Assembly: GCF_000282475.1 (NCBI RefSeq) | Contig: NZ_AKJF01000129.1 | Span: 1 to 42,352, forward strand | From: Pseudomonas sp. GM78 | GTDB taxonomy: Bacteria > Pseudomonadota > Gammaproteobacteria > Pseudomonadales > Pseudomonadaceae | Direction: 5' to 3' | DNA length: 42,352 nucleotides | Shown: piece after piece, positions 3,999 to 42,336 of the stretch | How the letters are laid out: every line of letters starts with the position of its first letter | How positions within the stretch are numbered: the stretch's first letter is position 1 | The notes under the pieces: generated by a model | Seen by the model: the letters and a program-made list of their open reading frames with translations, nothing else | Told to the model about the DNA's origin: nothing | The model's database searches: none | Made by a program: the position numbers and the translations under genes

Positions 3999-4073
3999 GT
4001 CATTACCTTTATTGTTTTTGTTTATGATCAACTTAGTGCCGGAGCGGTTATCCGGACTAACGTGAAGTCATTG

Positions 4074-16842: not shown

Positions 16843-17840
16843 TGAACGCCGCGCTGCCCCATGTCAGCGTGGTCGGCGCCGGGCGGATGGGCGAGGGCAT
16901 TGCCCTGGCGTTCATCCATGCCGGCCTGCCGGTGACCCTCATCGACATCAAGGACCGAGCCGAGGAAGAGCGCCACGGCTACTTCGAGCGCGTGCGCAAT
17001 AACGTGCGCAGCGAACTGCAGATGCTGGTACGCCTCGGCATGCTCCAGCCGGAACAGGCAGACATCGCGCTGTCGCGCCTGACCCTGCAATCCCGATCCG
17101 GGGCAGCAGAGACGTTGCGCCTGAGCGAGCTGGTGTTCGAAGCCGTGCCGGAAGTCATCGAGGTCAAGCAGCAGACCTTCGCCTGGGTCAGCGAGCATGT
17201 CCCGGCGTCGGCGATCATCGCGTCGACCACCTCGACCTTCCTGGTCACCGAGTTGAGCGAAATGGTCAGCACGCCTGAGCGCTTCGTCAACGCGCACTGG
17301 CTCAATCCCGCGCACCTGATGCCGCTGGTGGAAGTCAGCCGCAGCGCAGCGACCTGCCCACAGGTGGTCGAGCGACTGCTGCAACTGCTCAAGCGCATCG
17401 GCAAGGTGCCCGTGGTGTGCAATCCGGTGGCCGGCTACATCGTGCCGCGCATCCAGGCACTGGCGATGAACGAAGCCGCACGGATGGTGGAAGAGGGCGT
17501 GGCCAGCGCCGAAGATATCGACACCGCGGTACGCGTGGGTTTCGGCTTGCGCTTCTCGGTGCTGGGCCTACTCGAGTTCATCGACTGGGGTGGCGGCGAC
17601 ATTCTCTACTACGCCTCGCGTTACCTCAGTGGCGCGCTGGCCCCGCGTTTCGAGTCGCCACAGGTGATCGCCGACAACATGCAAAACGGTCGCAACGGCT
17701 TGCGCGATGGCCAGGGTTTCTACGATTACCGTGAGCTGGACGTGGACGCCTACAAGCAGCAGCGCATCGGTGCCTTTGTCAGCAAGCTGGCGTCGTCGGG
17801 GTTGACGCCAGCGTTTGATGGGGCGTTGCGGCAGGGCTAA
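16842..17840 (+). CDS. 3-hydroxyacyl-CoA dehydrogenase-family protein
   Basis: The 332-residue protein has the N-terminal NAD-binding fold VSVVGAGRMGEGIALAFIHA, the family's TSTFLVTELSEMV and FVNAHWLNPAHLMPLVEV segments (catalytic-type His), and a C-terminal helical domain with GFGLRFSVLGLLEFIDWGG. The length is nearer that of L-carnitine or L-gulonate dehydrogenases than of the roughly 280-residue butyryl-CoA enzymes. It may therefore oxidise a free 3-hydroxy acid. It overlaps the opine-dehydrogenase-type gene by one base. Its last 30 codons recur in altered form at 29931-30020, and its last nine or ten at 31438-31466; see the findings. Confidence 0.88.
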   Translation: MNAALPHVSVVGAGRMGEGIALAFIHAGLPVTLIDIKDRAEEERHGYFERVRNNVRSELQMLVRLGMLQPEQADIALSRLTLQSRSGAAETLRLSELVFEAVPEVIEVKQQTFAWVSEHVPASAIIASTTSTFLVTELSEMVSTPERFVNAHWLNPAHLMPLVEVSRSAATCPQVVERLLQLLKRIGKVPVVCNPVAGYIVPRIQALAMNEAARMVEEGVASAEDIDTAVRVGFGLRFSVLGLLEFIDWGGGDILYYASRYLSGALAPRFESPQVIADNMQNGRNGLRDGQGFYDYRELDVDAYKQQRIGAFVSKLASSGLTPAFDGALRQG

Positions 17841-17869
17841 GTTGCAGGGCCCGGGTGCCGGGCCCTGAT
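17751..17869. repeat. 119-bp direct repeat, copy 1 (3' end of hydroxyacyl-CoA dehydrogenase gene plus hairpin)
   Basis: This stretch aligns without gaps to 29931-30049, with about 15 mismatches by eye (near 87% identity). It covers the last 30 codons including the stop, and the downstream hairpin. Similarity stops abruptly on both sides. The right end is four bases before the stop codon of the next gene. It forms the left border of the glucarate island. Confidence 0.85.
17846..17868. terminator. Terminator-like hairpin after the hydroxyacyl-CoA dehydrogenase gene
   Basis: A perfect 10-bp stem, CAGGGCCCGG and CCGGGCCCTG, around GTG. It is shared between the forward-strand dehydrogenase gene and the convergent MFS gene ending at 17873. 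A T run (GTTTT) follows 11 bases later. The second repeat copy carries the same hairpin at 30026-30048 with two compensated or loop changes. Confidence 0.65.
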
Positions 17870-17872
17870 CCG

Positions 17873-19246
17873 TCAGGCGTTTTCGCGAGAAGGCTCGGCA
17901 TCCTCGATAACGACACGCTCGAAGCGCCCGGCAAGTACCACATAACCAAAGATCCCCAGCAGGCCGTGAGCCGCCACAAACCATAGCGCCGAGTCGAATG
18001 ATCCGGTCCTGGCAACAAAATAGCCAATGACCACCGGCGTTATGATCCCTGCGACGTTACCGATGCCGTTGAATACCCCACCACTCAAGCCCACCATGCT
18101 TTTGGGCGCTGTGTCGGACAATACTGCCCAGCCCACCGCCGCCAGTCCCTTGCCGAAAAATGCCAGGGCCATCAGGGCAATCACCATCCAGTTGGCGTCG
18201 ACATAATTTGCCGATACCAGGCTGGAGGCCAGCGCCATGCCAATCACGAAAGGGGTCTTGCGGGCCCGGGAGGGATGAACGCCACGACGGATCAGGTAGT
18301 CGGAAACCACCCCGCCCAGCACACCTCCCGAAAAGCCGCATATCGCCGGCATCGCCGCCACCCAGCCCGCCTGCATGATCGTCATGCCGCGTCCCTGGAT
18401 GAGGTAGATGGGGAACCAGGTGATGAAGAAGTAGGTGAGGGCGGTGATGCAGTATTGGCCCAGGTAGATCGCCCACAGTGTCCGATTGTTGAAGAGCTGG
18501 GCGACTTCCTTCATGGTCAGTTTTGGCTTGGTGACCTTGCGCGTGGCTTCCAGATCCACCAGGGCACCGCCGTCGCGCATGTATTGCAGTTCGGTCTCGG
18601 TCAGTCGCGGATCACTGTGAGGCTCGTGATAAAGCGCGAACCAGAACACCGTCGCCACCAGGCCGAGCCCGCCCATCCAGATGAAAACATGTTCCCAGCC
18701 CCAGGAATGGGTCAGCCAGGCCATGAGCGGGGCAAAGACTACAACGGCCATGTATTGCGCGGAGTTGAACAGCGCGGACGCAGTGCCGCGCTCACTGGTT
18801 GGGAACCAGCAGGACACGATGCGGTTGTTGGCCGGGAATGCTGGAGACTCCACCAGGCCGAGCATGAAGCGCATGCCGAACAAGGTGAGCGCCGCCGTGG
18901 AGCCCACAAGCCCGATCCAGCCCACGGTGCCTTGCATCATGGTGAACAGGGACCACAAGAACAGGCTGCAACCGTAGACCCTTCTTGCCCCGAATTTGTC
19001 GAGCAGCCAGCCGCCTGGAATTTGTCCCAGGGCATAAGCCCAGGCAAACGCTGAAAAAATCATTCCCAGCATGATGGGGTCTATCCCCAATTCCTTGATC
19101 ACGCCCGTACCGGCGATGGACATGGTTGCCCGGTCGGCATAGTTGAGAACGGTGACAATGAAAATCAGCGCGAGGATGACGAACCGGCGGCGTCCGACAT
19201 GGGCTTTTTCAAACGCAGTCGCCAGGGGTGCGGTCTTGGAGGTCAT
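17873..19246 (-). CDS. MFS transporter of the glucarate/galactarate (GudP-like) type
   Basis: The 457-residue inner-membrane protein belongs to the anion:cation symporter branch of the MFS. It opens FVILALIFIVTVLNYADRAT with the DRAT motif, followed by GQIPGGWLLDKFGARRVYG and FNSAQY in mid-protein. These are hallmarks of GudP/GarP D-glucarate and D-galactarate carriers. GGAGAG precedes the ATG. It is 59 bp downstream of the D-2-hydroxyacid dehydrogenase gene on the same strand. Within the island it would import glucarate or a related sugar acid in symport with protons. A second carrier of the same superfamily lies at 25205-26569. Confidence 0.88.
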   Translation of the reverse strand: MTSKTAPLATAFEKAHVGRRRFVILALIFIVTVLNYADRATMSIAGTGVIKELGIDPIMLGMIFSAFAWAYALGQIPGGWLLDKFGARRVYGCSLFLWSLFTMMQGTVGWIGLVGSTAALTLFGMRFMLGLVESPAFPANNRIVSCWFPTSERGTASALFNSAQYMAVVVFAPLMAWLTHSWGWEHVFIWMGGLGLVATVFWFALYHEPHSDPRLTETELQYMRDGGALVDLEATRKVTKPKLTMKEVAQLFNNRTLWAIYLGQYCITALTYFFITWFPIYLIQGRGMTIMQAGWVAAMPAICGFSGGVLGGVVSDYLIRRGVHPSRARKTPFVIGMALASSLVSANYVDANWMVIALMALAFFGKGLAAVGWAVLSDTAPKSMVGLSGGVFNGIGNVAGIITPVVIGYFVARTGSFDSALWFVAAHGLLGIFGYVVLAGRFERVVIEDAEPSRENA

Positions 19247-19305
19247 GGTGCTCTCCGGCTTCCTTCAGGGGAAGTTTTATTGTTGGAGTGAGTAGCGCGC
19301 GTCGC

Positions 19306-20244
19306 TCAGCAAGCGACGGCGGTCGGCAGCGGCGAACCGGCAAAGCAGGCGTGCAGGTTGGCCAGCACGATTTCGCCCATGGCCAGTCGGGTTTGTTCGG
19401 TAGCGCTGGCGCGGTGCGGTTGCAGCACCACGTTGCCCAGCGAACGCAGGGCCTCAGGTACGCGGGGTTCATCGGCGAACACATCAAGGCCTGCACCGGC
19501 GATGGTGCCGTCGCTCAAGGCGGCTATCAGTGCTTGCTCATCGACCAACTTGCCGCGGGCGACATTGATCAGATAGCCATTGGCGCCCAGGGCCTGGAGC
19601 ACCGCCGGGGTGATGATCGCTTCGCCTTTGTCGGCGGAGGCTGCCAGCATCAGCACATCGCTGCGGCGCGCCAGTTCGATCAGGTCGGGAACAAAGTGGT
19701 AGCCGCTTTGCGGCTGCTCACGCAGGTCGGTGTAATTAACCGTCATGTCGAATGCCTGGGCGCGTTTGGCGATCGCATGACCCACCCGGCCCAGCCCGAC
19801 GATCCCGAGTTGAATGCCGGTCACTTTGCGTGCCAGTGGTTGCGCGACGGTGCCCCACTGGCCTTCACGCACGATGCGCTCGCCGGTGGCGAGATCGCGC
19901 AGGGTCATGATCAGCAAACCCATGCCCATGTCCGCGACGTCATCGGTCAGCACGCCGGGGGTGGTGGTCACCTGAACTCCGCGATCCGCAGCGTTCGCCA
20001 GATCCACGGCATCCGTGCCGATGCCGCTGATGGCGATCACTTGCAGCGCTGGCAGGCGGTTCATGATCGCATTCGGCAGGCCCTTGGCGCCGCCGGTGAC
20101 CACACCGCGAATGCTGTGGCCCACCTGATTGAGAAATGCGTCCTGGTCGGCGGCCTCGTAGAGCCGGTGAACGGTGTATGACGCCTGGAGCCGGGCATCG
20201 ATCAGATCCGGTACAGGTTGGGTGAGGAGGATATTGATCTTCAC
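19306..20244 (-). CDS. D-2-hydroxyacid dehydrogenase (glyoxylate/hydroxypyruvate reductase-like)
   Basis: The 312-residue enzyme has the NAD(P)-binding GIVGLGRVG (147-155) and the catalytic triad Arg230 (NVARGKL), Glu259 (DVFADEP) and His277 (LQPHRAS). This is the usual arrangement for D-isomer-specific 2-hydroxyacid dehydrogenases. It probably reduces a 2-oxo acid such as hydroxypyruvate, glyoxylate or 2-ketogluconate. It is divergent from the LysR gene, with a palindromic LysR-type site between them, and is followed by the GudP-like carrier. It is not a known step of the glucarate route to 2-oxoglutarate, so this two-gene unit may serve a side substrate. Confidence 0.88.
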   Translation of the reverse strand: MKINILLTQPVPDLIDARLQASYTVHRLYEAADQDAFLNQVGHSIRGVVTGGAKGLPNAIMNRLPALQVIAISGIGTDAVDLANAADRGVQVTTTPGVLTDDVADMGMGLLIMTLRDLATGERIVREGQWGTVAQPLARKVTGIQLGIVGLGRVGHAIAKRAQAFDMTVNYTDLREQPQSGYHFVPDLIELARRSDVLMLAASADKGEAIITPAVLQALGANGYLINVARGKLVDEQALIAALSDGTIAGAGLDVFADEPRVPEALRSLGNVVLQPHRASATEQTRLAMGEIVLANLHACFAGSPLPTAVAC

Positions 20245-20337
20245 GTCGCGTTCCTTGAGTTGGATTTATTGGGGCGGGCGACAAGCAGCTGCCTGCGTGT
20301 GGTTCCAGAGTAGGAAAACGATCGATGCTGGTCTAAC

Positions 20338-20358
20338 ATTGATACTGTATCGATCAAT
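20338..20358. promoter_or_regulatory. LysR-type operator between hydroxyacid dehydrogenase and LysR genes
   Basis: ATTGAT (20338-20343) and ATCAAT (20353-20358) are inverted and contain the T-N11-A core expected for LysR-type regulators. A second palindrome, GATACTGTATC, is nested at 20341-20351. The site lies 15 bp before the LysR start, where it could control both divergent genes. Confidence 0.65.
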
Positions 20359-20372
20359 ACAAGAATTGAATC

Positions 20373-21263
20373 ATGGAGCTCCATCAACTTCGCTGTTTTG
20401 TCATGGTTGCCGAAGAGCTGCATTTCGGTCGGGCAGCCAAACGATTGTTCATGACCCAGCCCCCGCTGAGCCGCCAGATCCAGATGCTGGAACGTTCGCT
20501 GGGTGTGACCTTGCTTGAGCGCAGTAACCGCAACGTGCAACTGACGGTTGCCGGGCAGCATTTCCTGCGTGATGCCCGGCATGTCCTGGCGTACACCGAG
20601 CAGGCGGGAACGGCGGCCCGGCGCCTGGCGCGAGGGGAAGCGGGGCAATTGCTCCTGGGGTTTACAGCGGTCAGTGGCTACCAGCTGATTCCCGGGCTGC
20701 TCGGGCATGCCGCGCAACGGCTCCCGGACGTAGGTTTTGAATTGCATGAAATGGTCTCGGGCGCCCAGACGGAAGCCTTGGCGGCGAGCATGATCGACGT
20801 CGGTTTCGTTCGGCGAGCGGCGCCACACCTGGGGTTTGACTCGCAGTTGATTTGCAGCGAGCCGTTGCTGGTGGTGATGCCCAACGCGCACCCGCTGGCG
20901 CAGCAAACGACGATTGCGGTGGCCGATCTGGATCAGCAACCCTTCGTGATGTATTCGCCGGATGAAGGGCGGTATTTCTACGACTGCATCGTCGGCTTGT
21001 TCGCCATGGCGGGCGTATCGCCGCGTTACCTGCACTACCTGGGGCAGACCCATTCCATACTCGGGCTCGTCCGTGCGGGCCTGGGGCTGGCGATCGTGCC
21101 AGCCGCCGCTCGCGAGCTGTACCTGGGGCATTTGCAGTTCCGTCCCCTTGAGGATGCTCAGCCGCGAGCAGAGGTGTACATGGTTTCCAGGCGCGACAAC
21201 GACAACCCGGCACTGCCGCCGTTCCTGCGCATGGCGCAGGAGTATTTCCACGCACTCGGTTGA
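20373..21263 (+). CDS. LysR-family transcriptional regulator
   Basis: The 296-residue protein begins MELHQLRCFVMVAEELHFGR and has the LysR winged helix-turn-helix (AAKRLFMTQPPLSRQIQMLE). A substrate-binding domain of the periplasmic-binding type runs from about residue 90 to the end. The length is standard. It is divergent from the D-2-hydroxyacid dehydrogenase / GudP-like pair and is the likely regulator of both through the palindrome at 20338-20358. It converges with the GntR gene at 21278, 14 bp from its stop, with no room for a separate terminator. The inducer is probably a sugar-acid intermediate; this is inference. Confidence 0.92.
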   Translation: MELHQLRCFVMVAEELHFGRAAKRLFMTQPPLSRQIQMLERSLGVTLLERSNRNVQLTVAGQHFLRDARHVLAYTEQAGTAARRLARGEAGQLLLGFTAVSGYQLIPGLLGHAAQRLPDVGFELHEMVSGAQTEALAASMIDVGFVRRAAPHLGFDSQLICSEPLLVVMPNAHPLAQQTTIAVADLDQQPFVMYSPDEGRYFYDCIVGLFAMAGVSPRYLHYLGQTHSILGLVRAGLGLAIVPAAARELYLGHLQFRPLEDAQPRAEVYMVSRRDNDNPALPPFLRMAQEYFHALG

Positions 21264-21277
21264 TGCGCCAACCGGGT

Positions 21278-22012
21278 TTATCGGAAGGTGGCGTGGCGTA
21301 GACGCTCACGGATGTTGCCCAGATGGAGATTCATGGCCGCCTTGGCAGCCACAGGGTCGCCATCGGCAATGCCCTGGTAAATCGCCTGGTGTTCGTGTTG
21401 CAGGCGCAGCCCATACTCGATTCGATCCCCGCCATTCAAGGCGGCGCTATTGAGGCGCTTGCGGGGGATGAGATCGATGCCGAGGTGGTCGGTGATGTCC
21501 ACGAAGTAACGGTTATCCGTCGCCAGGGCGATCTGTCGGTGAAATTCATGGTCGGCCGCTGCCGCCACGTCACGACTGATGCCCGGGTCTTTCAGTATGT
21601 CGAGGGCCTTGTGCATGCATGCCAGATGCTGCGGATTTCGCCTTTGGGCGGCGAAACCCGCGGCTTCCACTTCGATACTGATACGCAGCTCGATGACGGC
21701 GAGTACATCTTCAAGGGAGGCATTGGAGTTGGGGTGCACGTCGCCATCGGGCGTGTCGCTGACGAATGAGCCGATACCGTGCCTGGTAATGACCAGCCCA
21801 CGGGTTTGTAATTGCGAAATGGCTTCGCGCACGACGGTTCGGCTGACGCCATGCTCGGCCATGACTTGCGCTTCTGCAGGCAGTTTCTGCCCGGGTTGCA
21901 GTGCGCCGCTGGTGATGCGCTCGCTCAGCACCTGGGCGAGTATGGACGACAGGTTTCTGGATTGGTTGAAGCCTTTTGGCCGGCGATGCAGGGCGTGGCA
22001 AGGCGCGATCAT
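21278..22012 (-). CDS. GntR-family (FadR/FCD) transcriptional regulator 1
   Basis: The 244-residue protein has an N-terminal winged helix (LPAEAQVMAEHGVSRTVVRE, then RHGIGSFV) and an FCD ligand domain with the metal-ligand pattern DHEFHRQIA and HLGNIRERL near the end. The start at 22012 is chosen over an upstream frame at 22150 because AGGG precedes it and the extension would run into intergenic sequence. It lies 113 bp after the semialdehyde dehydrogenase, on the same strand, possibly as the last gene of the glucarate operon. A second, related GntR/FCD protein sits at the other end of that operon (27934-28644). Confidence 0.9.
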   Translation of the reverse strand: MIAPCHALHRRPKGFNQSRNLSSILAQVLSERITSGALQPGQKLPAEAQVMAEHGVSRTVVREAISQLQTRGLVITRHGIGSFVSDTPDGDVHPNSNASLEDVLAVIELRISIEVEAAGFAAQRRNPQHLACMHKALDILKDPGISRDVAAAADHEFHRQIALATDNRYFVDITDHLGIDLIPRKRLNSAALNGGDRIEYGLRLQHEHQAIYQGIADGDPVAAKAAMNLHLGNIRERLRHATFR

Positions 22013-22125
22013 GATGGTGTCCCTATAAGCCCCAATGTGTATTGAGCCCGTCGATGGCCGTCGGCGTGACGTGTTTTCAAAGTTCGGCGGCGCAACCTTC
22101 TGCGCCGCGTACCTGGCCAGACGGG

Positions 22126-23709
22126 TTAGCCAATGGCGGCGTCGCTCCACTCGCTATTGACCAGGCGTTTGAGTTTGAGTGGATTGCTGTTTTGCAACGC
22201 TGCAGGTAACAGCGCGTCGGGATAGTTCTGGAAGCAAACCGGGCGCAGGAATCGATCGATCGCCAGCGTACCGACGGAGGTGCCGCGCGAATCCGACGTT
22301 GCCGGGTAAGGCCCGCCATGCACCATGGCTTCACACACCTCGACGCCGGTGGGGTAGCCGTTCACCAGAATGCGTCCGACTTTTTGCTCCAGCACGGGAA
22401 CAAGCCATTGGTACTGTTGCAGGTCTGCCGGCTCGCCAATCAGCGTGGCGGTCAGCTGACCCCGTAGCGAGTGAAGCGCGAGCTTGAGCTCGTGGTCGTC
22501 TGCCACTTCGATCACGATCGTGGTCGGGCCAAAGACTTCTTCCTGCAGCAACTCGTCACCCTCAAGCAGCAGGCTCACATCCGCCTTGAACAGTTGTGGT
22601 CGGGCTTGATTGCCGGTCTGCTCAGAGCCTGCCAGGTGGGTGATGCCGGGGTGGGCGTGCAAGTGCTCCAGCCCTTTGCTGTAGCTGCGCAGGCCGCCTG
22701 CATTGAGCATGGTTTGCGGTGCCTGGACAGTCATTTGGCCTTGCAGATGCTCAAGGAACTGTGCGAACTGCGGGGATTTGATCCCGATCACCAGGCCAGG
22801 ATTGGTGCAGAACTGGCCGCAGCCCATGACCACGGAGGCCGCCAGATCCCTTGCCACGGTTTCACCGCGTGCAGACAGCGCGTCTGGCAGCAATACCACC
22901 GGGTTGATGCTGGACATCTCGGCAAACACCGGGATGGGTTGTGGGCGCGCTGCCGCCATCTTGCACAAGGCGTTGCCGCCGCCCAGCGAGCCGGTAAATC
23001 CGACAGCTTGAATGGCCGGATGCTTGACCAGCCATTCGCCTACGCCGCTACCGAAAATCATGTTGAATACGCCCTTGGGCATACCGCTGCGCTCAGCCGC
23101 GCGAATGATCGCGCAGCCCACCTGGTCGGCTGTTGCCATGTGGCCGCTGTGCGCCTTGAAGACGACAGGGCAGCCAGCCGCCAGCGCGGCAGCGGTATCG
23201 CCACCGGCAGTCGAAAACGCCAAGGGGAAGTTGCTGGCGCCAAACACCGCGACCGGGCCGACACCGATACGGTATTGACGCAGGTCGACTCGCGGCAGTG
23301 GCGTGCGATCGGGCAGGGCCAGGTCGATGCGTGCACCAAGAAAGTCGCCACGGCGCAGCACGTTGGCAAACAGGCGCATCTGGCCACTGGTGCGTGCCCG
23401 TTCGCCTTGAATACGGCCTGCTGGCAACGCGGTTTCCTGGCAGACGATGGCGTCGAAGTCTTCGCCCAGTTGATCAATTTCGTCTGCAATGGTATCGAGA
23501 AATTCGGCGCGGCGTGCCGGGCTCAGTTGTCGGTACTCAACGAACGCGTTTTCGGCGGCCAGGGCTGCGCGGTCTACTTCGGCCTCTGTGGCTTGAAAAA
23601 AATCATACGGCAGAGGCTGGCCGGTGCTTGCGTCCAGGCTCTTGAGCCGTTGTTCGCCGTCGGTGCTACGTTCGCCAGCGATAAAATTCTGGCCAAGCAG
23701 TGTGAGCAT
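22126..23709 (-). CDS. 2-oxoglutarate semialdehyde (2,5-dioxovalerate) dehydrogenase
   Basis: The 527-residue NADP-type ALDH oxidises 2,5-dioxopentanoate to 2-oxoglutarate, the last step of the glucarate route. It has the start MLTLLGQNFIAGE, the general base Glu264 (VFAEMSSINP) and nucleophile Cys301 (GCGQFCTNPG). The FCTNPG motif and about 525 residues characterise the KGSADH branch. It is 100 bp downstream of the glucarate dehydratase gene on the same strand, with a small hairpin between them. With the two dehydratases it completes conversion of D-glucarate to a TCA-cycle intermediate. Confidence 0.93.
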   Translation of the reverse strand: MLTLLGQNFIAGERSTDGEQRLKSLDASTGQPLPYDFFQATEAEVDRAALAAENAFVEYRQLSPARRAEFLDTIADEIDQLGEDFDAIVCQETALPAGRIQGERARTSGQMRLFANVLRRGDFLGARIDLALPDRTPLPRVDLRQYRIGVGPVAVFGASNFPLAFSTAGGDTAAALAAGCPVVFKAHSGHMATADQVGCAIIRAAERSGMPKGVFNMIFGSGVGEWLVKHPAIQAVGFTGSLGGGNALCKMAAARPQPIPVFAEMSSINPVVLLPDALSARGETVARDLAASVVMGCGQFCTNPGLVIGIKSPQFAQFLEHLQGQMTVQAPQTMLNAGGLRSYSKGLEHLHAHPGITHLAGSEQTGNQARPQLFKADVSLLLEGDELLQEEVFGPTTIVIEVADDHELKLALHSLRGQLTATLIGEPADLQQYQWLVPVLEQKVGRILVNGYPTGVEVCEAMVHGGPYPATSDSRGTSVGTLAIDRFLRPVCFQNYPDALLPAALQNSNPLKLKRLVNSEWSDAAIG

Positions 23710-23781
23710 ATCGATCTCCGTGGGCCTCAGGCTGAGCAGTGGATGCGTGTCTGAAGCCGGTTGATGAGGTGGCGTAGGTCG

Positions 23782-23800
23782 GGGGCACTTTGGGTGCCCC
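23782..23800 (-). terminator. Hairpin between glucarate dehydratase and semialdehyde dehydrogenase genes
   Basis: GGGGCAC (23782-23788) and GTGCCCC (23794-23800) form a 7-bp stem with a five-base loop inside the operon. There is no T tract. It may reduce read-through or protect upstream RNA from decay. Confidence 0.4.
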
Positions 23801-23809
23801 GCCTGAGGA

Positions 23810-25162
23810 TCAGCGCACCAGGCAAGGTTGCTTGTTATTGAAGCTCCAGCCCGGAATCAGGAACTGCATCGCGACGCTGTCATCCCGCGCGCCGAGCCCC
23901 ATGCCTTTGTACACTTCGTGGGCCTTGGCCACCGCGTCCAAGTCGATCTCTACACCCAGGCCATGTTTGGTCGGAACCTTGACGTAGCCGCCTTCTATTT
24001 TCAGCGGCTCTTTGGTCAGGCGCTGGCCGTCCTGCCAGATCCAGTGGGTGTCGATCGCGGTGATTTCTCCCGGTGCGGCGGCTGCGACTTGAGTGAACAT
24101 GGCCAGGGAAATATCGAAGTGGTTGTTGGAATGAGAGCCCCAGGTCAGGCCCCATTCGTGACACATCTGGGCCACGCGGACGGAGCCCTGCATCGTCCAG
24201 AAGTGCGGGTCGGCAAGCGGGATGTCGACCGATTGCAATTGGATGGCGTGGCCCATTTCGCGCCAGTCGGTCGCGATCATGTTGGTGGCGGTCTTCAGTC
24301 CCGTGGCGCGGCGGAATTCAGCCATGACTTCGCGGCCCGAGTAACCGTTTTCCGCGCCGCACGGGTCTTCGGCGTAGGCCAGGACATGATGCTGATCGCG
24401 GCACAAGCGGATGGCTTCTTTGAGCGACCAGGCGCCATTGGGGTCGAGGGTGATTCGTGCATCGGGAAAGCGCTCGGCCAGTGCCGTCACCGCTTCGATT
24501 TCTTCATCGCCGCTGAGTACACCGCCCTTGAGCTTGAAGTCGTTGAAGCCGTATTTGGCCTTTGCCGCTTCGGCCAGGCGCACGACCGCCTCGGCGGTCA
24601 TGGCTTTCTCGTGACGCAATCGGAACCAGTCATCATCCGCGTCGGACTCGTTTCGGTAGGCCAGGTTGGTGGCATTGCGATCGCCGACGTAGAACAGGTA
24701 GCCGAGCATTTTCACCGCATCGCGTTGCTGCCCTTCGCCCAACAAGGCCGCCACCGGAACCTCGAGGAATTGACCCAGCAAATCGAGCAGGGCGGCTTCC
24801 ATGGCGGTCACGGCATGAATGGTGATCCGCAGGTCGAAGGTTTGCAGGCCGCGACCGGCCGCGTCACGGGAGGCGAAGGTGGTGCGCATCTGATTGAGGA
24901 TGCGTTGGTACTGGCCGATGGGCTGGCCGATCACCAGGTTACGAGCGTCTTCGAGGGTCTCGCGGATGCGTTCACCCCCCGGTACTTCGCCCACGCCGGT
25001 ATTACCGGCGCTGTCCTTGAGAATGACGATGTTGCGAGTGAAGAACGGGCCGTGGGCGCCGCTCAGGTTCAGCAGCATGCTGTCGTGGCCCGCAACGGGT
25101 ATCACTTGAAAACTGGTGACGACAGGCGACTTGGTGGTGTTGGCAGTATGTTCAGCGTTCAT
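23810..25162 (-). CDS. gudD: D-glucarate dehydratase
   Basis: The 450-residue enolase-superfamily enzyme dehydrates D-glucarate (and often L-idarate) to 5-dehydro-4-deoxyglucarate in the cytoplasm. Catalytic and Mg ligands are in place: the K-x-K pair Lys210/Lys212 (FKLKGG), Asp240 (LDPNGAW), Glu265 (EDPCG), Asn294 (ATNMI) and His344 (GSHSNNH). Each sits five residues later than in the E. coli enzyme. The start has TAGGAA upstream. It follows the MFS carrier by 42 bp within the reverse-strand operon kdgD-like, MFS, gudD, ALDH. Confidence 0.95.
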
Positions 25163-25204
25163 GGCAAGTTCCTATGAATAGAGGTCGTTCAGCGATCAAT
25201 GGGG

Positions 25205-26569
25205 TCAGTGCGCTTTGACTGTCGCACCCGTTGGAGCGCCGTTCGGCGATGTCGGCAGGGAGGATGGCTTGGGTGAAGTCCTGGCAAAAAACACCAGTAT
25301 CGCGGCGAGTACCGAGGTACCGGCCAGGCCATAGAGGCCGCCTTGAATCGAGCCGGTGGTCTGTTCCAGGAAGCCGAAAGTCGTCGGTGCCACGAAACCA
25401 CCCAGGTTACCGATCGAGTTGATCAGCGCGATGACCGCGGCGGCGATACGGGCATCCAGGTAGCCCTGGGGAATGGGCCAGAACAACGAGGACGCAGACT
25501 TGAAGCCGATGGCAGCGAAGCAGATGGCGACGAAGGCGAAGATCGGCCCGCCGGTGGTGGACAGGAACATGCCGGCAGCTGCAATCAACAGGGCGGTGGC
25601 GACCCAGGCTTGCTGGAATTTGAACTTGCCCGACAGCGCCGCAAAGGAGTACATGGCGATGATCGAGATCAGCCAGGGAATCGAGTTGAAAAACCCGACC
25701 TGTACGTCACTCAGGTCACCCATCTTCTTGATGATGCTGGGAAGCCAGAAGGTCGCGGCGTAGATCGTCAGCTGAATGCAGAAGTACAGGGCGCAAAACA
25801 GCAGGATCTGACGATCCTTGAGGAGCTTGCCGATGGTCGGCTTGATGGTCGTCAGGGCTTCACGCTCACGTTGCTCCTGATCGATAGCGCCGACCAGTGC
25901 ATCTTGCTCTTCTCGCGTCAGCCACTTGGCGTCGTGGGGTTTGGAGTCCAGCCAGAACCAGACAAAACCGCCGATTACGACAGAGGCCAGGCCTTCGATG
26001 GCGAACATCCACTGCCAGCCGTGAAAACCAAAACCTTCGATCTGCAACAGGACACCCGACAGCGGGCCGGAAATCAGCGACGCAACGGCAGAACCACTGA
26101 GAAAAATCGCAATGGCCTTACCGCGCTCGACGCCTGGCAACCAGCGGGTGAAGTAGTAGATCACGCCAGGGAAGAAGCCTGCTTCGGCCACGCCGAGCAA
26201 GAACCGCAGAATGTAGAAGTGGGTTTCGTTCTGGATGAACGCCATCATCGTGGCGACGATGCCCCAGGTGAACATGATGCGCGTCAGCCAGATACGGGCT
26301 CCGACTTTTTGCAGCAGCATGTTGGAAGGTACTTCGAAGAGGGCGTAGCCGATGAAAAACAGGCCGGCACCCAGCCCGTAGGCGGCAGCACCGATACCGA
26401 GGTCATGTTCCATGTGCGTGCGCACGAAACCGATGTTGACCCGGTCGATGTAGTTGAGGATGAACATGATCACGAAAAGCGGGAGTACATGTCTCTTCAC
26501 TTTGCTCACGGCGCGCGCGAGAACCGAATCATCTTCTGCAACGACAGATGCATTGTTTGAATTGTTCAC
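25205..26569 (-). CDS. MFS transporter of the ACS (sugar acid/tartrate/phthalate) type
   Basis: The 454-residue protein has about twelve membrane segments, with LPLFVIMFILNYIDRVNIGF at the start and YALFEVPSNMLLQKVGARIW between helices 2 and 3. These are marks of the anion:cation symporter branch, to which GudP and tartrate carriers belong. The start is a GTG with GGAGA eight bases upstream. It lies between the kdgD-like gene and gudD in one operon and is the likely main glucarate importer. The other carrier at 17873-19246 may differ in substrate. Confidence 0.88.
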   Translation of the reverse strand: MNNSNNASVVAEDDSVLARAVSKVKRHVLPLFVIMFILNYIDRVNIGFVRTHMEHDLGIGAAAYGLGAGLFFIGYALFEVPSNMLLQKVGARIWLTRIMFTWGIVATMMAFIQNETHFYILRFLLGVAEAGFFPGVIYYFTRWLPGVERGKAIAIFLSGSAVASLISGPLSGVLLQIEGFGFHGWQWMFAIEGLASVVIGGFVWFWLDSKPHDAKWLTREEQDALVGAIDQEQREREALTTIKPTIGKLLKDRQILLFCALYFCIQLTIYAATFWLPSIIKKMGDLSDVQVGFFNSIPWLISIIAMYSFAALSGKFKFQQAWVATALLIAAAGMFLSTTGGPIFAFVAICFAAIGFKSASSLFWPIPQGYLDARIAAAVIALINSIGNLGGFVAPTTFGFLEQTTGSIQGGLYGLAGTSVLAAILVFFARTSPKPSSLPTSPNGAPTGATVKAH

Positions 26570-26650
26570 AATTCAAATCTCCCACTGATTATTTTTATGC
26601 GGGTTTGAGCGTGTCGCCGGCGGCTTGGCCGCCGGTTGTAGCGGGTCGAG

Positions 26651-27562
26651 CTACTGGGGGCCAAGCTTCCTGATCAGGGCGTCCAGTTCTTCCATTTCAT
26701 TTGGCAGCAAGTCGGTCAGTGGTGCTCGCACGGGGCCGGCATCGTGGCCCACCAGTTTGGCGCCGGCCTTGACGATACTCACGCCATAGCCTTCGCAGCG
26801 ATTGCGGATATCCAGGTAAGGCAGGAAGAAATCATCGATGAGCTTGCCCACGGTTTCGTGGTCTTGGGCAGCGATTGCCCGGTAGAACTCCATGGCCGTT
26901 TTCGGAATGAAGTTGAATACCGCTGAAGAGTAGACCGGCACGCCCAGCGCTTTATAAGCCGCGGCATACACTTCGGCGGTTGGCAGGCCACCGAGGTAGG
27001 TCAGGCGTTCGCCCAGGCGGCGACGAATCGAAACCATGCTTTCAATGTCGCCCACGCCGTCCTTGAATCCGATCAGGTTAGGGCAGCGATCAGCCAGCTT
27101 TTCCAGGCTGTCGGCGTTCAATCGGCAGACATTGCGGTTGTAGACCACGACCCCGAAGTCCACTGATTTGCAGACTTGTTCGACGTGAGCGACCAGGCCT
27201 TCCTGGCTGGCTTCGGTCAGGTAGTGAGGTAGCAGCAGCACACCCGCCGCGCCGAGACGTTCTGCTTCCTGGGCGTAAGCGATGGCTTGGCGGGTAGGGC
27301 CACCGGTGCCGGCGAGAATCGGCACTTCGCCACGGCAGGTGTCCACCGCAACCTTGATGATTTGCGAGTACTCGCTTGCTTCGAGCGAAAAGAATTCGCC
27401 TGTGCCGCCCGCCGCGAACAACGCGCTTGCGCCGTAGGGGGCCAGCCATTCAAGGCGCTTGGCATAGGTGTCTGCACGGAAGTCGCCGGCTGCGTTGAAG
27501 TCGGTCAACGGAAAAGACAGGAGGCCTTCAGAAAGGATGGACTTGAGTTCTTGAGGATTCAT
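26651..27562 (-). CDS. kdgD: 5-dehydro-4-deoxyglucarate dehydratase (decarboxylating)
   Basis: The 303-residue protein is a class I aldolase-fold (DapA family) enzyme that turns 5-dehydro-4-deoxyglucarate into 2,5-dioxopentanoate, CO2 and water. The Schiff-base Lys167 (IGFKDGVGD) and catalytic Tyr141 (VVVYNRN) are present, as is the [10 protein letters not shown] substrate loop. The start at 27562 (MNPQELKS) gives exactly the usual 303 residues; an in-frame ATG five codons upstream is less likely. It is the first gene of the glucarate operon, behind a promoter whose -10 box overlaps a putative GntR site. Confidence 0.94.
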
Positions 27563-27933
27563 GTGATTCGCCTGCATCGCTGGTTTTTGTCGAGATGTCT
27601 GGTGCGCTTGTGTTGATAGACATCATACAAGTGGTTTTTCTGATCTGCAATGCAATGGAGGATGTTTTGTTTTCGGAAGAGGGCGGAAAATAACTTTATT
27701 GGGTGCGATGCCCAGTGTCTATTGGGGTTTAAGTGCTTTTCTGGGTGGGGTTTGGGTGGCCTGGCATGTCAGACAAGTGCTAGCTATATCGCTCAATCTG
27801 AGGCTAATAGATATGTTGTCATACAAGTAGATGCCGTTCTATGATTCGAACCAGCGGACTACCTCCGCATTTCGCCAGAGAATCTCTGGTGGGTGTTAAG
27901 CTCTGCGGAGCAAAATCCTGTGGACTCGAACCT
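27563..27933. promoter_or_regulatory. Divergent control region of the glucarate operon and GntR regulator 2
   Basis: This 371-bp gap holds a reverse-strand promoter for the kdgD operon: TTGCAG (27645-27650 complement), 17-bp spacer, TATGAT (27622-27627 complement). Two GntR/FadR-like sites share TCATACAA. One, at 27620-27630, overlaps the -10 box. The other, TTGTCATACAA at 27816-27826, is a perfect T-N-G-T-N3-A-C-N-A palindrome upstream of the GntR gene. The composition is AT-richer than the neighbouring genes. Confidence 0.65.
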
Positions 27934-28644
27934 ATGCAAATTGAAAGCGGAGCGCCTGTCCGTAGACGATCCAATAATCTGGCTCAGGGCGTGGTGGAAG
28001 CACTGACCCAGCGCATCTTGCTCGGACAATTGAAGCCAGGCGAAAAGCTGCCCTCGGAATCGACCATCGTTCTCGAGCATGGCGTGAGCCGCACCGTTGT
28101 CCGGGAGGCTATCTCCAAGCTGCAAGCTTCGGGTTTGGTGGAAACACGCCACGGCATCGGCACATTTGTGCTGGAGCAACCCTCCCAGCCAGGGCTGCGC
28201 CTGCATGTGGATACGGTTGCAAAAGTCAGGAGCATGCTGGAACTGAGACTGGGCCTGGAGGTGCAGGCCGTTGCGCTGGCAGCCGTTCGCCGCACGGACG
28301 ATCAGCTCGCGCGCATGCGCCAGGCCTTGAGTGATTACCAGGCGTCGTTGGCCAACAACGACAGTTGCGTCGAGGAAGACAAGCGCTTTCACCAGATCAT
28401 TGCCGAGGCTACCGGCAATACGTTTTTCACGGAAATCATGCAGCACTTGGGCAATGCCATGATTCCCCGTACCCAGGTGAAGGTCGACGAGCGCGGAGGC
28501 GCCGACTTTTCGAAATTGGGGCACCTGGCGAACCTGGAGCATGAAGCGATTTTCAACGCGATCAAGCGCCAGGATCCCGATGCGGCTCGAGCGGCGATGG
28601 TGCTGCACCTGACGAACAGCCGGGATCGGTTTTCGGGAGATTGA
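27934..28644 (+). CDS. GntR-family (FadR/FCD) transcriptional regulator 2
   Basis: The 236-residue protein has the winged helix LPSESTIVLEHGVSRTVVRE and RHGIGTFV and an FCD ligand domain (DKRFHQIIAEATGN, HLTNSRDRF). It closely resembles regulator 1 through the DNA-binding helix. I chose the ATG at 27934 (MQIESGAPVRRRSNN) because the domain begins shortly after; a start at 27841 is possible, and neither has a strong ribosome site. It is divergent from the glucarate operon and is the likely repressor acting at the two TTGTNNNACAA-like sites. Its last 83 bases overlap, on the opposite strand, the extended end of a dihydrofolate-reductase-like gene. Confidence 0.9.
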   Translation: MQIESGAPVRRRSNNLAQGVVEALTQRILLGQLKPGEKLPSESTIVLEHGVSRTVVREAISKLQASGLVETRHGIGTFVLEQPSQPGLRLHVDTVAKVRSMLELRLGLEVQAVALAAVRRTDDQLARMRQALSDYQASLANNDSCVEEDKRFHQIIAEATGNTFFTEIMQHLGNAMIPRTQVKVDERGGADFSKLGHLANLEHEAIFNAIKRQDPDAARAAMVLHLTNSRDRFSGD

Positions 28645-29221
28645 AGTGGTTCTGTAGCCGTGGAGAGGGAGCTTTCACTCCATCATCGGCTTTCACGTCC
28701 AGGATGCATTCGATAGCACCGCTGTGCAGCGTGCGCTGTTTTCTGAGGATGACCTCAAGCGCGCGGTCAACGGGCAGCACAGGAACGCCGGAGCCGAGAA
28801 AGACCGGAATGGTGGTGATGAACAGTTGCTGCAACTCCCCGGCGTCGGCAAAACAGGCAGCCGTTTTGCCGCCGCCAACGAGCCAGACATTCTTGCCCTT
28901 CGCCGCTTGCCTGGCCCTGGCCGCGATGGCTTCGGCATCACCGCGTACGAAGGTGATATCCAGGTTGGCGGGGACTGACAGATTACGGTTGCTCATGACA
29001 AAGGCGGGCACATCCTGGTAAGGCCAGTCATCGGGAGCGTTCGACATGATCCAGTCATAGGTCTGCGACCCCATGACCACCGCTCCGACCGTCTGGTAAA
29101 AATCATCATAGGCCGTTGCGTCATCCCCCAGCGCAAAGTTCTCCAGCCAATCCAGTTTGTGTTGTTGAGTGGCAATAAAACCATCCAGGGTGGCGGCTAC
29201 GTAATAGACCAGCGTCGACAT
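28562..29221 (-). CDS. Dihydrofolate reductase-family (RibD C-terminal-like) protein with extended tail
   Basis: The 219-residue protein begins MSTLVYYVAATLDGFIATQQ and has the NADPH-binding VWLVGGGKTAACF segment of the RibD_C / DHFR-like family, whose members reduce unknown pteridine or pyrimidine compounds. AAGGAAAC precedes the ATG at 29221; an upstream extension to 29305 is not supported. Related proteins normally end close to the last beta-strand (here about residue 180, ECILDVKA). The remaining roughly 38 residues are Pro/Ser-rich and are encoded antisense to the end of the GntR gene. The native stop may have been lost at a junction. Functional status is uncertain. Confidence 0.82.
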   Translation of the reverse strand: MSTLVYYVAATLDGFIATQQHKLDWLENFALGDDATAYDDFYQTVGAVVMGSQTYDWIMSNAPDDWPYQDVPAFVMSNRNLSVPANLDITFVRGDAEAIAARARQAAKGKNVWLVGGGKTAACFADAGELQQLFITTIPVFLGSGVPVLPVDRALEVILRKQRTLHSGAIECILDVKADDGVKAPSPRLQNHFNLPKTDPGCSSGAAPSPLEPHRDPGA

Positions 29222-29930
29222 GTGTTTCCTTTTAATCAAGCAGCGGGAAATGACCCGTAAATGAAGAGCCCCCTCTGGTAAGTGGCGAGGAGCGATCGTG
29301 ATCATTTATTTCGGAAGGGCGAAGATAATGCAGTTTCTACTTGGCAGGGGCTTTGCCTGTTTGACGCTGTTAAGTGCCGCCGCGCATGACAAAGCGCTGC
29401 CGCAAAGAGGCATGCCGCTCGGCCACTCTTTCGATACGCGATACCAACCGTGAAGTGGAAAAATCGGTGCCCACGTGAAAAGCCGACTCAAGTAACAGAC
29501 CAGGGCAGGCCGGGGTCGATAGCCTGCTTTAATCAAAGAGCTTTTTGGCAGATGCACCGTGTACCATCTCCTTGGTAATGGGATAAGCGTGTTTACTTGG
29601 CGAAGTAGCAAAATTTTATGTGTCGTGCAGCTTGTAAAGTGATCATTGATCACAAGGTGCAGTTGAGCTTTTGATTTTAAATTTTAGGCGTCGTGCGGCT
29701 GTTATAGTTAGATTTATAATTGACTATTTAGGCTGAAAATCAAATGGTAAGTAAGTAACAATGTATTGCAATGGCCCGAAATGACGGGGCGGGAAGCCAA
29801 CCTCTAGGAATGATCTGTAGGAGTGATCTGAAAAAGCCGAATATCCAATAAATAGAGAAAAAGTGGACAGAGAAAAAGAGAAAAAAGTGAGAAAAAGATG
29901 AGTCCATTTTAGTCCCGTCCCTTTTAGTCA
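29222..29930. other. AT-richer intergenic stretch without a convincing gene
   Basis: I see no supported coding region here. A 115-codon reverse frame (29306-29653) starts with GTG inside a palindrome and has no recognisable domain. Visible structure includes the palindrome GTGATCATTGATCAC at 29639-29653 and an imperfect 27-bp direct repeat (29611-29637 and 29679-29705, about 21 matches). A purine-rich tract with repeated AGAAAAAG runs over 29850-29900, ending in TCCCGTCCCTTTTAGTC right at the border of the 119-bp repeat. The mix looks like mobile-element debris. Confidence 0.5.
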
Positions 29931-30049
29931 TACAAGCAGCAGCGTACCGGCGCCTTTGTAAGCAAGCTGGCGTCGTCGGGCTTGGCGCCAGCGTTCGAAG
30001 GGGCGTTGCGGCAGGCTTGAGCAGCAGGGCCCGGATGTCGGGCCCTGAT
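29931..30049 (+). pseudogene. 119-bp direct repeat, copy 2: detached 3' end of a hydroxyacyl-CoA dehydrogenase gene
   Basis: This copy carries 29 in-frame codons and a TGA matching the end of the gene at 16842-17840, then the same terminator hairpin. There is no start and no upstream similarity. The protein tail differs at few positions (RIGAF to RTGAF, LTPAFD to LAPAFE, final G to A) although about 15 bases differ, so most changes are silent or conservative. That pattern indicates descent from a working allele of a related strain rather than decay in place. It forms the right border of the glucarate island. Confidence 0.8.
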
Positions 30050-30114
30050 TGCGCGACGTTTCAGTTGGAGTTCGTCAGCTCGCAGGAACAAATCCGAGGG
30101 ATTTCACGCAACAG

Positions 30115-30366
30115 TTAAAACCAGTATTCTTTTTTTCCTCCGTCATTACTCCTGCTTATCAAGGTTTTTCTGTTCAGATTTGATGTCGGGGTATTGTTTG
30201 TGTCTGAGTTGGAAAGAATCGCATTAATTGATGATTCAGCATACTTTTTTCCGTTGTCTTTAACGACTTGCCTTTCTTTCATCCAGCTTTTTAGATCTTC
30301 GACAGTGAAGGGCTGAGCAAGATGGCCGAGTTCAGTCGCTTCATAAATTTTTTGAATGAGTGGCAT
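30115..30366 (-). CDS. Small hypothetical protein, AT-rich
   Basis: The 83-residue product begins MPLIQKIYEATELGHLAQPF and ends KKEYWF. I do not recognise its family. It looks genuine: a predicted helix-rich first half (VEDLKSWMKERQVV), a polar second half with SSINAILSNSD, and no long opposing frame. The start at 30366 has GGA eight bases upstream. A longer frame to 30441 would translate an octamer repeat and is less likely. Base composition and codon use are clearly lower in GC than in neighbouring genes, suggesting recent arrival with the mobile debris around it. It lies between repeat copy 2 and an integrase remnant. Confidence 0.55.
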   Translation of the reverse strand: MPLIQKIYEATELGHLAQPFTVEDLKSWMKERQVVKDNGKKYAESSINAILSNSDTNNTPTSNLNRKTLISRSNDGGKKEYWF

Positions 30367-30405
30367 ATAGTTTCCATGGCAAGTGCTTTTGCAGATTTTC
30401 AGACC

Positions 30406-30436
30406 TTGAACGTTTGAACGTTTGAACGTTTGAGCG
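30406..30436. repeat. Tandem octamer repeat (TTTGAACG)
   Basis: Four head-to-tail copies of TTTGAACG (the first lacks one T, the last reads TTTGAGCG), directly upstream of the small hypothetical gene on the reverse strand. They may be a slippage-prone tract or iterated protein-binding sites. Confidence 0.7.
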
Positions 30437-30569
30437 TTCATGTGCGTATTCCAATAATTACGCAGTGATCGAACATTGCAAGAATTTCGTAGTAGGCATT
30501 TCTATGTCTATTAAGTGAAGTGACGCTACCAATTTGCCATTGCCGTGTCTACCGTCCACTTTTGGCCGG

Positions 30570-30600
30570 ACAGCGACGGCCTGGCATTGACCGTCGCTGT
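30570..30600. repeat. Perfect 10-bp inverted repeat next to the integrase remnant
   Basis: ACAGCGACGG (30570-30579) and CCGTCGCTGT (30591-30600) flank an 11-base centre, immediately past the 3' end of the integrase fragment. No T run follows on either strand. It may be a recombinase-associated site or an RNA hairpin. Confidence 0.6.
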
Positions 30601-30606
30601 GGCTGG

Positions 30607-30780
30607 TCAGCCGCACGGCTGTTTCGCCATTTCCAGGGCGTCATCGAACTCGATCACCAGGTATCTGACGGTACTTTCAAGCTTCGTTTGGCCTGGCAGG
30701 AGTTGCACTGCTCTCAGGTTCTTCGTCTTACAATAGATCAGCGATGCCTTGGTTCTCCGTAGCGTGTGGGTGCTGTACAT
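30607..30780 (-). pseudogene. Tyrosine recombinase (phage-type integrase) C-terminal remnant
   Basis: The reverse strand encodes YSTHTLRRTKASLIY, NLRAVQLLPGQTK and ESTVRYLVIEFDDALEMA. This is the C-terminal catalytic end of a tyrosine recombinase: H-x-x-R (HTLR), the normally LLGHT box, and the nucleophile Tyr in STVRYL. The usual LLGHTK reads LPGQTK here, so the second conserved His is replaced by Gln and a Pro is introduced. The N-terminal two thirds and the first catalytic Arg are absent; upstream sequence is unrelated. The fragment is therefore inactive. It lies between copies 2 and 3 of the duplicated dehydrogenase tail, where a past integrase would be expected. Confidence 0.75.
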
Positions 30781-30893
30781 GGTTGGAGGAAAAAAGGGGG
30801 AACGACCCACAGAGAGGACAGCCACTTGGCCCGGTAGTCCGTGGCTGTCCAGGTGAGCAAGACTCATCGGTTGTTTTCGATTGGGAGTCGACC

Positions 30894-31208
30894 TCACTCC
30901 TTGATAATGGCGCCGCCTATATGGGCCAGGAAAAACACAGAGTCTTCGAGCGCTTCTGCGTCATGTTGCTCCCCAGGTCCCATTCTCAGATAGTCGCCTG
31001 GTGACATTACCAGATCACCGAAGCGGATCTTTCCCGACACCATAAGGATCTCCTCCGGCCCTTCATGGTCATGCAGTGGAAAGCGTGCGCCAGCTTCAAA
31101 CGCAATAAAGTCCGAACCCGTTCCGTTCTCCCCCCACACGGTGGAAAAGCGAACGCCCGGGATACCGGTTTCTTCGTACTGGCGAGCCGATTTGGTCAAG
31201 TGAAGCAT
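30894..31208 (-). CDS. Cupin-domain protein (ChrR-like)
   Basis: The 104-residue protein is a single small cupin barrel. Metal ligands are visible: His46 and His48 in PLHDHEG, Glu52 or Glu53 (PEEILMVSGK) and His82 (GPGEQHDAEA). AGGAGG precedes the ATG at 31208, an ideal ribosome site, so expression is likely. Relatives act as anti-sigma-like sensor domains or small metal-dependent enzymes; a specific role cannot be given. It stands alone between the integrase remnant and the REP pair. Its GC content is closer to the chromosome than that of the small gene at 30115. Confidence 0.83.
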   Translation of the reverse strand: MLHLTKSARQYEETGIPGVRFSTVWGENGTGSDFIAFEAGARFPLHDHEGPEEILMVSGKIRFGDLVMSPGDYLRMGPGEQHDAEALEDSVFFLAHIGGAIIKE

Positions 31209-31588
31209 GGCTACCTCCTTCTTGAAACGGGTCTGGTAGCCCGTATTTCAAGGATCTATTCAGGTGGTATCGCACAACGTCATTGCATGCAATGGCGTTA
31301 CTTCCGGCAATCAAACCTTGTTAGTGAGTAGTGTCCCCGCTGGTGGATGTTTAAGCGCCGGAGCAACATAAAGATTAGACATTTTTTTTGTTACGTGGAC
31401 TACGTAGGACAGGAGGTACGAGACGTCCTCATGTAGTCGTTCGATGGCGCCTTGCGGCAGGCTTGAAAATGACGGTCGAATGCCAGCCGCCACTGTAGGA
31501 GCGAGCTTGCTCGCGATGGTCGTCAGGGCACCGCGTGCAGTCAGGCTGCCCTCGTTATCGTTGACGTCCTTCGCGAGCAAGCTCGCTC
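31209..31588. other. Intergenic region with gene-tail fragment and REP pair
   Basis: No gene is supported here. The left half (31209-31437) holds the cupin gene's upstream region and AT-rich sequence including a run of eight T near 31382. The 29-bp dehydrogenase-tail fragment follows, then a convergent REP pair. A 99-codon reverse frame (31311-31610) crosses the REP and is not credible. Confidence 0.5.
31438..31466 (+). pseudogene. Third, 29-bp copy of the hydroxyacyl-CoA dehydrogenase gene tail
   Basis: In frame this reads F-D-G-A-L-R-Q-A-stop (31440-31466). It matches the end of the true gene (FDGALRQG) and of copy 2 (FEGALRQA). At base level it agrees with copy 2 (29992-30020) at 26 of 29 positions and with copy 1 (17812-17840) at 23 of 29. 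There is no gene upstream. It may mark the original junction between the dehydrogenase gene and the chromosomal sequence that now begins at 31467. Confidence 0.65.
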
Positions 31589-31593
31589 CTACA
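31494..31593. repeat. REP pair (BIME-like)
   Basis: TGTAGGAGCGAGCTTGCTCG begins at 31494 and its inverted partner ends at 31593, about 55 bp of spacer between the units. This is the common Pseudomonas REP class. The stop codon of the adjacent acetyltransferase gene (31589-31591) lies inside the right unit. Confidence 0.9.
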
Positions 31594-41990: not shown

Positions 41991-42336
41991 TTTATTGTTC
42001 TCCGCAGTCGGGTTCGGTTGCTCACAGTCTTGCGGCGCGGACGATTTCGGAGAACGGCAGGAAAGGCCAAAAGGGGATTAATGTGGCCAAAATATTTGAC
42101 CGAAATTCGCCCCTGCAGATGAGTATTTGGATTGGGTGTATATCCGTTGCTGCGGTAACGGCCACCTATGGTTTCGCCCGGCGAGTCACTTGGAAACACC
42201 TGTAGGAGCGAGCCTGCTCGCGATGGAGGTCAACGATAACGCGCCCTGTCTGGATGATCGCGTGGTTTGGCAGTCCATCGCCAGCAGGCTGGCTCCCACA
42301 GGGGATTGGGGGTATCTGTAAAAGTCAGGTCGGCTG
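41991..42336. promoter_or_regulatory. Upstream region of the acetylpolyamine operon
   Basis: This gap contains two exact GGCCAAAA repeats at 42065-42072 and 42085-42092, 20 bp apart start to start, which would suit a dimeric regulator. The rest of the gap up to the REP pair shows no gene. Short open frames here have no ribosome sites or recognisable product. Confidence 0.45.
42201..42302. repeat. REP pair
   Basis: TGTAGGAGCGAGCCTGCTCG at 42201 and the inverted partner ending GGCTCCCACAGG at 42302 form a convergent pair of the same class as at 31494. Confidence 0.85.

Follow-up and report, generated by a model that had tools for sequence, protein, structure and literature searches.

The DNA analysed here is a stretch of 42,352 nucleotides from Pseudomonas sp. 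GM78 (assembly GCF_000282475.1, contig NZ_AKJF01000129.1), which is the whole contig and is called the window below. It carries a gene of the 3-hydroxyacyl-CoA dehydrogenase family (16842..17840, + strand; Pfam 3HCDH_N 3.1e-49 and 3HCDH 4.3e-19, NCBIfam PRK08269 above cut-off), the 3' end of which has been regenerated repeatedly. The intact gene is followed by two further, probably older, 3' ends of the same gene, stacked downstream and separated by two segments that we call cargo A (between ends 1 and 2) and cargo B (between ends 2 and 3). There is good support for insertions having occurred repeatedly at this end of the gene. We infer that the older ends were displaced one after the other by one-sided homologous recombination, a mechanism to which we assign a probability of about 0.54.

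Three ends of one gene and the site in relatives

Copy 1 (17751..17869, + strand) is the live end of the gene and comprises its last 30 codons with the stop codon, followed by a terminator. Copy 2 (29931..30049, + strand) is a displaced, probably resident, end of the same gene, again with terminator, and copy 3 (31438..31466, + strand), which would be the oldest displaced end, consists of the last 29 bases with the stop codon. Copies 1 and 2 are identical at 104 of 119 positions (87.4%), without gaps over the 119 bp, and the terminator stem is common to both. Copy 3 agrees with copy 2 at 26/29 positions and with copy 1 at 23/29, the next best place in the window on either strand reaching 19/29. 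A scan of the window allowing 3 mismatches returned copies 2 and 3 only, with 0 matches in 100 shuffles, and a 120-base search of the 7.29-Mb genome returned copies 1 and 2 only. An earlier reading made from the sequence alone (the sequence-only reading) had described the three copies with these positions and identities, correctly so. It had also called the changes between copies 1 and 2 mostly silent, which holds only just: 10 codons differ, of which 6 are silent (one being the stop codon) and 4 change the residue, one of these differences being D/E. Codon 19 differs by a T to A change at a position that is invariant in 31/31 orthologues compared; the change sits in copy 2, as would be expected of an end that is out of use.

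To the right of copy 3 lies a spacer with a pair of repetitive extragenic palindromic (REP) sequences (31467..31604; inverted repeat 31493-31525 / 31562-31594), and then the ancestral right neighbour gene (31605..32265, - strand), which from its translation we take to be acetyltransferase-like. For the comparison with relatives, 32 of 80 loci were used as orthologous (protein identity at least 86%), and the other 48 (at most 73%) were left out. Locus L031, the 3' end of which reads differently, was left out of the gene-end comparisons; genome G274 was taken as the same assembly as locus L015 and counted once, and loci L020 and L022, which are 99.6% identical, were taken as one clade.

Four of the 32 loci (L020, L022, L003 and L015) have the dehydrogenase gene near the homologue of the gene at 31605. 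The site is empty in L020/L022, where 59 bp lie between the stop codon of the dehydrogenase gene and the 31605 homologue. L003 (P. putida 17522) has an open reading frame (ORF) and a RibD_C gene between the two, and L015 (P. umsongensis) has a hydrolase gene, a regulator gene, gudD, gudT and another regulator gene at the dehydrogenase gene end; we take the hydrolase to be of the alpha/beta type and the regulator beside it to be CGNR-type. Both kinds of strain that the sequence-only reading had proposed to look for, those without the cargo and those with other cargo at the same gene end, are thus present among the relatives. No match to the 31605 flank was found in the other 28 of the 32 loci, in which the dehydrogenase block is elsewhere or the compared DNA ends first. 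In L028, relatives of the L015 hydrolase (90% at the amino acid level) and of the presumably CGNR-type regulator (75%) lie side by side upstream of the block (429-2008); this pair seems to travel with the dehydrogenase block.

In a set of 398 genomes of the genus, the dehydrogenase gene was found in 40 (E <= 1e-30) and the acetyltransferase-like gene in 231 (E <= 1e-120). Among the matches listed, the two genes are close together only in the own genome, G264 and G274 (drafts may split them across contigs). The left neighbour of the acetyltransferase-like gene is variable, 49 loci (several from the same genomes) falling into seven groups.

The same-species genome G264 matches the window over 1-29366 at 96.7% identity and weakly to 29851; it has no match for 29852-31448 there, and the match resumes at 31449, inside copy 3. 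The cargo of G264 runs into an 18-base stub, GGCGTTGCGGCAGGCCTG, in which the stop codon is changed, and then into the same spacer and REP pair. The stub aligns to copy 3 at 15/17 positions. The window and G264 thus both have a remnant where copy 3 lies, and copy 2 and cargo B are absent there in G264. An assembly artefact is unlikely, because the single contig of G264 shows the same junction of gene end and cargo, with a stub in the position of copy 3. A chance or artefactual origin of the copies was rejected on the 3-mismatch scan, the shuffles and the G264 stub. The view that everything from 31467 onward is the ancestral neighbour had to be narrowed: the neighbour common to other species starts at 31605, and 31467-31604 (about 25 bp and the REP pair) is whole only in G264 among the loci examined. 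Successive additions at the same gene end, with the gene kept whole and the old ends displaced, are supported by L020/L022, L003, L015 and G264, as had been proposed.

Proposed displacement of the resident end and alternative explanations

Which of the ends was resident is indicated mainly by a junction with a hydrolase gene. Directly after copy 2 (30050..30074, - strand) lies what is left of a hydrolase gene, namely its last codons; in P. umsongensis this gene comes next after the dehydrogenase gene. Over 30050-30067 the remnant matches the last codons of the L015 hydrolase at 16/18 positions and at the same offset, compared with 8-11/18 at any offset in 30 other relatives. Copy 2 thus seems to keep the neighbour that preceded cargo A; judged by this junction, it was probably the resident end, and copy 1 would have arrived later. 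Genomes G275 and G277 were added for the gene-end trees, and in the 119-nt tree 18 of the 36 rows keep the bases after the stop codon, the others being masked there. Copy 1, copy 2 and the G264 end were grouped with ultrafast bootstrap values of 99 (90 nt) and 98 (119 nt), and L015 joins next (96 and 95, respectively). These trees lend weak support to a place of copy 2 among the species' own gene ends; they gave no evidence for a distant donor of copy 1, which they would allow.

In the order of events that we infer, the dehydrogenase gene was ancestrally followed by the acetyltransferase-like gene at 31605. In a first event, DNA with its own version of the gene end and with cargo B would have arrived, and the old end would have been left as copy 3. 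In a later event, DNA with another end (copy 1) and with cargo A would have arrived, leaving the then-resident end as copy 2, which would retain a few codons of its former hydrolase neighbour. On the left side the incoming DNA would have paired within the dehydrogenase gene, and on the right side a joint without homology would have been made, either by homology-facilitated illegitimate recombination or by a single crossover with a circular fragment. The donors were probably close relatives. G264 would later have lost copy 2 and cargo B, unless it never had copy 2.

If one-sided homologous recombination was at work, the remnants should vary in length and the right joints should lack homology. 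Both features were seen: the remnants measure about 90 and 29 bases, and 19 in G264 (counting the stop codon), and the sequence to the left of 29931 and of the G264 joint is by inspection unlike the dehydrogenase gene. Within the stretch 16808-17107 the window and G264 are 88.0% identical, compared with 95.7% in the next 300 bp and about 96% otherwise between these strains; this drop points to an exchange of alleles in the first part of the dehydrogenase gene. Recombination with the allele of a related strain, which the sequence-only reading had named as its alternative, fits better than its preferred model, in view of the junction of copy 2 with the hydrolase of a sister species and its grouping in the best tree with the species' own ends, although the tests given below would allow other positions.

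Several results weigh against this reconstruction. No second gene end was found in the loci of the 32 relatives, with up to 10 kb of downstream DNA compared (the self-matches in this search were REP-like bases after the stop codon), and a long second gene end was present in only 1 of the 40 genomes with the gene, that of the window itself (two places were scored per genome, and short stubs would escape). In approximately unbiased (AU) tests a position of copy 2 with L015 was not rejected (p 0.37 with 90 nt and 0.10 with 119 nt), and neither was a position outside the group of window, G264 and L015 (p 0.38 and 0.30) or with copy 1 alone (p 0.21 and 0.40). A position outside a wider group with L007 and L009 was rejected with 90 nt (AU p 0.015; Shimodaira-Hasegawa test p 0.16), but not with 119 nt (p 0.055). 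A clear donor tract to the left of copy 1 was not found: the block as a whole fits ordinary descent, and only the local drop at 16808-17107 between the window and G264 was seen. Nor was a donor of the cargo found, the nearest relatives of its first module outside the species being at about 80%. By eye, the G264 stub agrees with copy 2 at 17/18 positions and is thus slightly nearer to it than to copy 3. Finally, the 29 bp of copy 3 seem short for homologous pairing, and copy 3 would therefore have been eroded or joined otherwise.

The original proposal was that of integrative elements inserting in the gene end as they do at tRNA genes. In this explanation the 3' end of the gene was the site-specific target of two elements with tyrosine recombinases, which restored it on insertion in the manner of e14 in icd, and the integrases were lost later. 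The geometry is that of e14, for which a duplication of 163 bp of the gene end and an aspartate/glutamate change are described (PMC6379469), and copies 1 and 2 also differ by D/E. Moreover, a regenerated gene end on one side and a displaced fragment on the other, as in integrative elements, are present here, cargo B contains a recombinase stub, and the gene-end trees allow an outside origin of either gene end. However, an element that integrates site-specifically should have a fixed crossover and an integrase, and neither was seen. The displaced ends do not share a single crossover site, their starts lying about 90, 29 and 19 bases from the last base of the stop codon, although later erosion could blur a fixed one, and cargo A is made of modules that are found apart elsewhere. 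The only recombinase is the stub inside cargo B. No integrase was found in cargo A among 7 of its 10 proteins that were scanned; the three regulators were judged from their translations, not every ORF was searched for other integrase families, and loss is possible. A tblastn search with the recombinase family of the stub, covering the loci of the 32 relatives, G264, G274 and the window, matched the stub only. The integrative-element explanation is therefore not supported, and we regard it as rather unlikely.

A tandem duplication in place, starting inside the gene end and followed by deletions and replacements without any incoming gene end, is in our view a poor candidate. It would account for copy 2 being nearest to copy 1 and to the G264 end (79/90 each) and grouped with them in the best tree, and for the gud genes that lie to the right of the same hydrolase in P. 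umsongensis. It does not account for the neighbours of the copies, which are wholly different (copy 1 is followed by an MFS gene, with no hydrolase remnant), or for the gud genes of the window, to which the L015 genes are no nearer than the L020 genes, and copy 3 beside the ancestral flank would require a second event. That copy 3 is a chance match and only one event took place is hardly credible: the copy is short (29 bp, and 18 bp in G264), but there were no matches among the 100 shuffles, it ends exactly at the stop codon, it precedes the gene which in L020/L022 comes next after the dehydrogenase gene, and G264 has a stub at the same place.

Contents of the inserted segments

Cargo A begins with a module of three genes (module 1, 17873..21263), an MFS transporter (- strand), a D-2-hydroxyacid dehydrogenase (- strand) and a regulator (+ strand) which by its translation is presumably LysR-type. 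Module 2 (21278..28644) is a glucarate cluster with a regulator, an aldehyde dehydrogenase, glucarate dehydratase, an MFS transporter, KdgD and a second regulator; from their translations we assume both regulators to be GntR/FadR-type. Glucarate dehydratase and KdgD pass the NCBIfam cut-offs, and the aldehyde dehydrogenase and the transporter, which reached no specific cut-off, were assigned by family. The segment ends with a RibD_C gene (28685..29230, - strand), also present between the dehydrogenase gene and the 31605 homologue in P. putida 17522, and an AT-rich right end (29338..29930). The description of the segment as a complete glucarate catabolic cluster thus suits 21278-28644, but leaves out module 1 and the RibD_C gene.

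Cargo A is composite, because in each of the five other genomes compared for it module 1 occurs, at 75-79% identity, without the rest of cargo A (18-19 kb compared per locus). The dehydrogenase block was not found within these 18-19 kb at any of the five loci. In a donor search with module 1, 22 of 328 genomes matched at E <= 1e-250, the best match outside the species being at 80%. Between the window, L015 and L020 the gudD-gudT genes are equally far apart (89.4-89.7%), whereas the dehydrogenase block (92.5% between window and L015) and the right flank (93.8%) place the window nearer to L015; the gud genes were therefore not simply inherited with the site.

The gud genes also accompany the dehydrogenase block in other arrangements. 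In L025 (11088-18043) and L028 (11087-18232), which are 94.8% identical over the block, the same dehydrogenase gene is followed by homologues of a porin (85%), gudD (79%), an MFS gene (66-67%) and an aldehyde dehydrogenase (72%), and the block of L020/L022 has gud genes on its upstream side. This repeated pairing suggests a functional link of the block with sugar acids.

A repeat of the type CCGTCCC(C) (29909-29926) stands near the right boundary of cargo A, 4 bp before copy 2; in G264 the distance between a related repeat (C1:2318005-2318022) and the remnant is 7 bp. The repeat was found at 15 places in 5 genomes, and in the own genome copies of the motif are clustered in a small array on a different contig (G000 C108:48006-48121). 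To us these repeats resemble those near Y1-type transposases; among four loci with the repeat that were read by eye, one ORF in L233 begins like what we take to be an IS110-type transposase.

Cargo B contains, after the hydrolase remnant, a small orphan ORF of 108 amino acids (30115..30441, - strand), for which no Pfam match was obtained at E <= 0.01, DUF7669 appearing only at E 0.1. An 8-bp tandem repeat, TTGAACGT, is present at the start of this gene (30406-30437). The orphan ORF is followed by the C-terminal stub of a tyrosine recombinase (30619..30792, - strand), 83% identical over 58 amino acids to a full-length relative (Pfam Phage_integrase E 0.015, below cut-off). The stub corresponds to the last 58 residues of the full-length recombinase, which bears out its earlier description as a decayed tyrosine recombinase; in most of the loci listed, the relatives are open frames of about 200-225 residues. 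With 30050-31437 as query, 81 of 298 genomes matched, the own genome included, and among the matches listed all were in the stub, except for the own locus and one match in the cupin region. Since the family of the stub is this widespread, it says little about this site. The last gene of cargo B encodes a cupin (ChrR cupin-like; 30894..31208, - strand).

Two further observations concern the window outside this region. In relatives, the genes at 3066-4031 and 9456-10379 match each other's regions at about 67% (3369-3905 and 9756-10262) and are an old duplicated pair. REP-type repeats are also present at 42198-42301.

Relation to known systems

The arrangement resembles that of type VI effector-immunity modules in Vibrio cholerae, for which sequential displacement by homology-facilitated illegitimate recombination has been proposed (PMC5361080). 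There too a new module arrives at a conserved upstream sequence and the older parts are shifted downstream, the newest lying nearest to the anchor, but the remnants are possibly useful immunity genes (PMC5361080), whereas the window has short gene ends as remnants and metabolic genes as cargo. Displacement of rhs C-terminal regions, for which a circular intermediate has been proposed, likewise leaves an intact gene with detached 3' fragments behind it; these include core pieces of variable length and all come from the same clade. The rhs tip alters the protein (PMC2935791), whereas the regenerated end in the window gives nearly the same protein end. In E. coli, prophage e14 duplicates the 3' end of a protein-coding gene, icd, and regenerates it with a slight amino acid change. 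Unlike the insertions described here, whose joints lie at different points and in which no integrase turned up, e14 integrates site-specifically (PMC6379469). Within the same genus, the swapping of effectors at a vgrG 3' end in P. aeruginosa has a dominant breakpoint at the conserved 3' end of the gene and a less precise other side, and these breakpoints have been read as homology-facilitated illegitimate recombination (PMC11751169). In that system effector genes are exchanged, and the account consulted mentions no stacked gene ends (PMC11751169). Such recombination is rare in E. coli conjugation (PMC3240628).

What differs in the present case is that the gene is catabolic, the cargo is metabolic and the leftovers are without evident use. 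Narrow literature searches on homology-facilitated illegitimate recombination and catabolic genes turned up no report of such a case, which may still have been reported. We tentatively raise the idea, speculative as it is, that the ends of ordinary catabolic genes are general loading slots for whole catabolic clusters, used without an integrase: pairing would guide the insertion, the newcomer would bring its own end and thereby leave the gene functional, and the stacked ends would record the order of acquisition. The locus offers a testable case of a route by which bacteria may acquire complete metabolic clusters beside a working gene without breaking it. If this is common, leftover gene ends could be searched for across the genus, where they would order acquisitions and explain islands without integrases.

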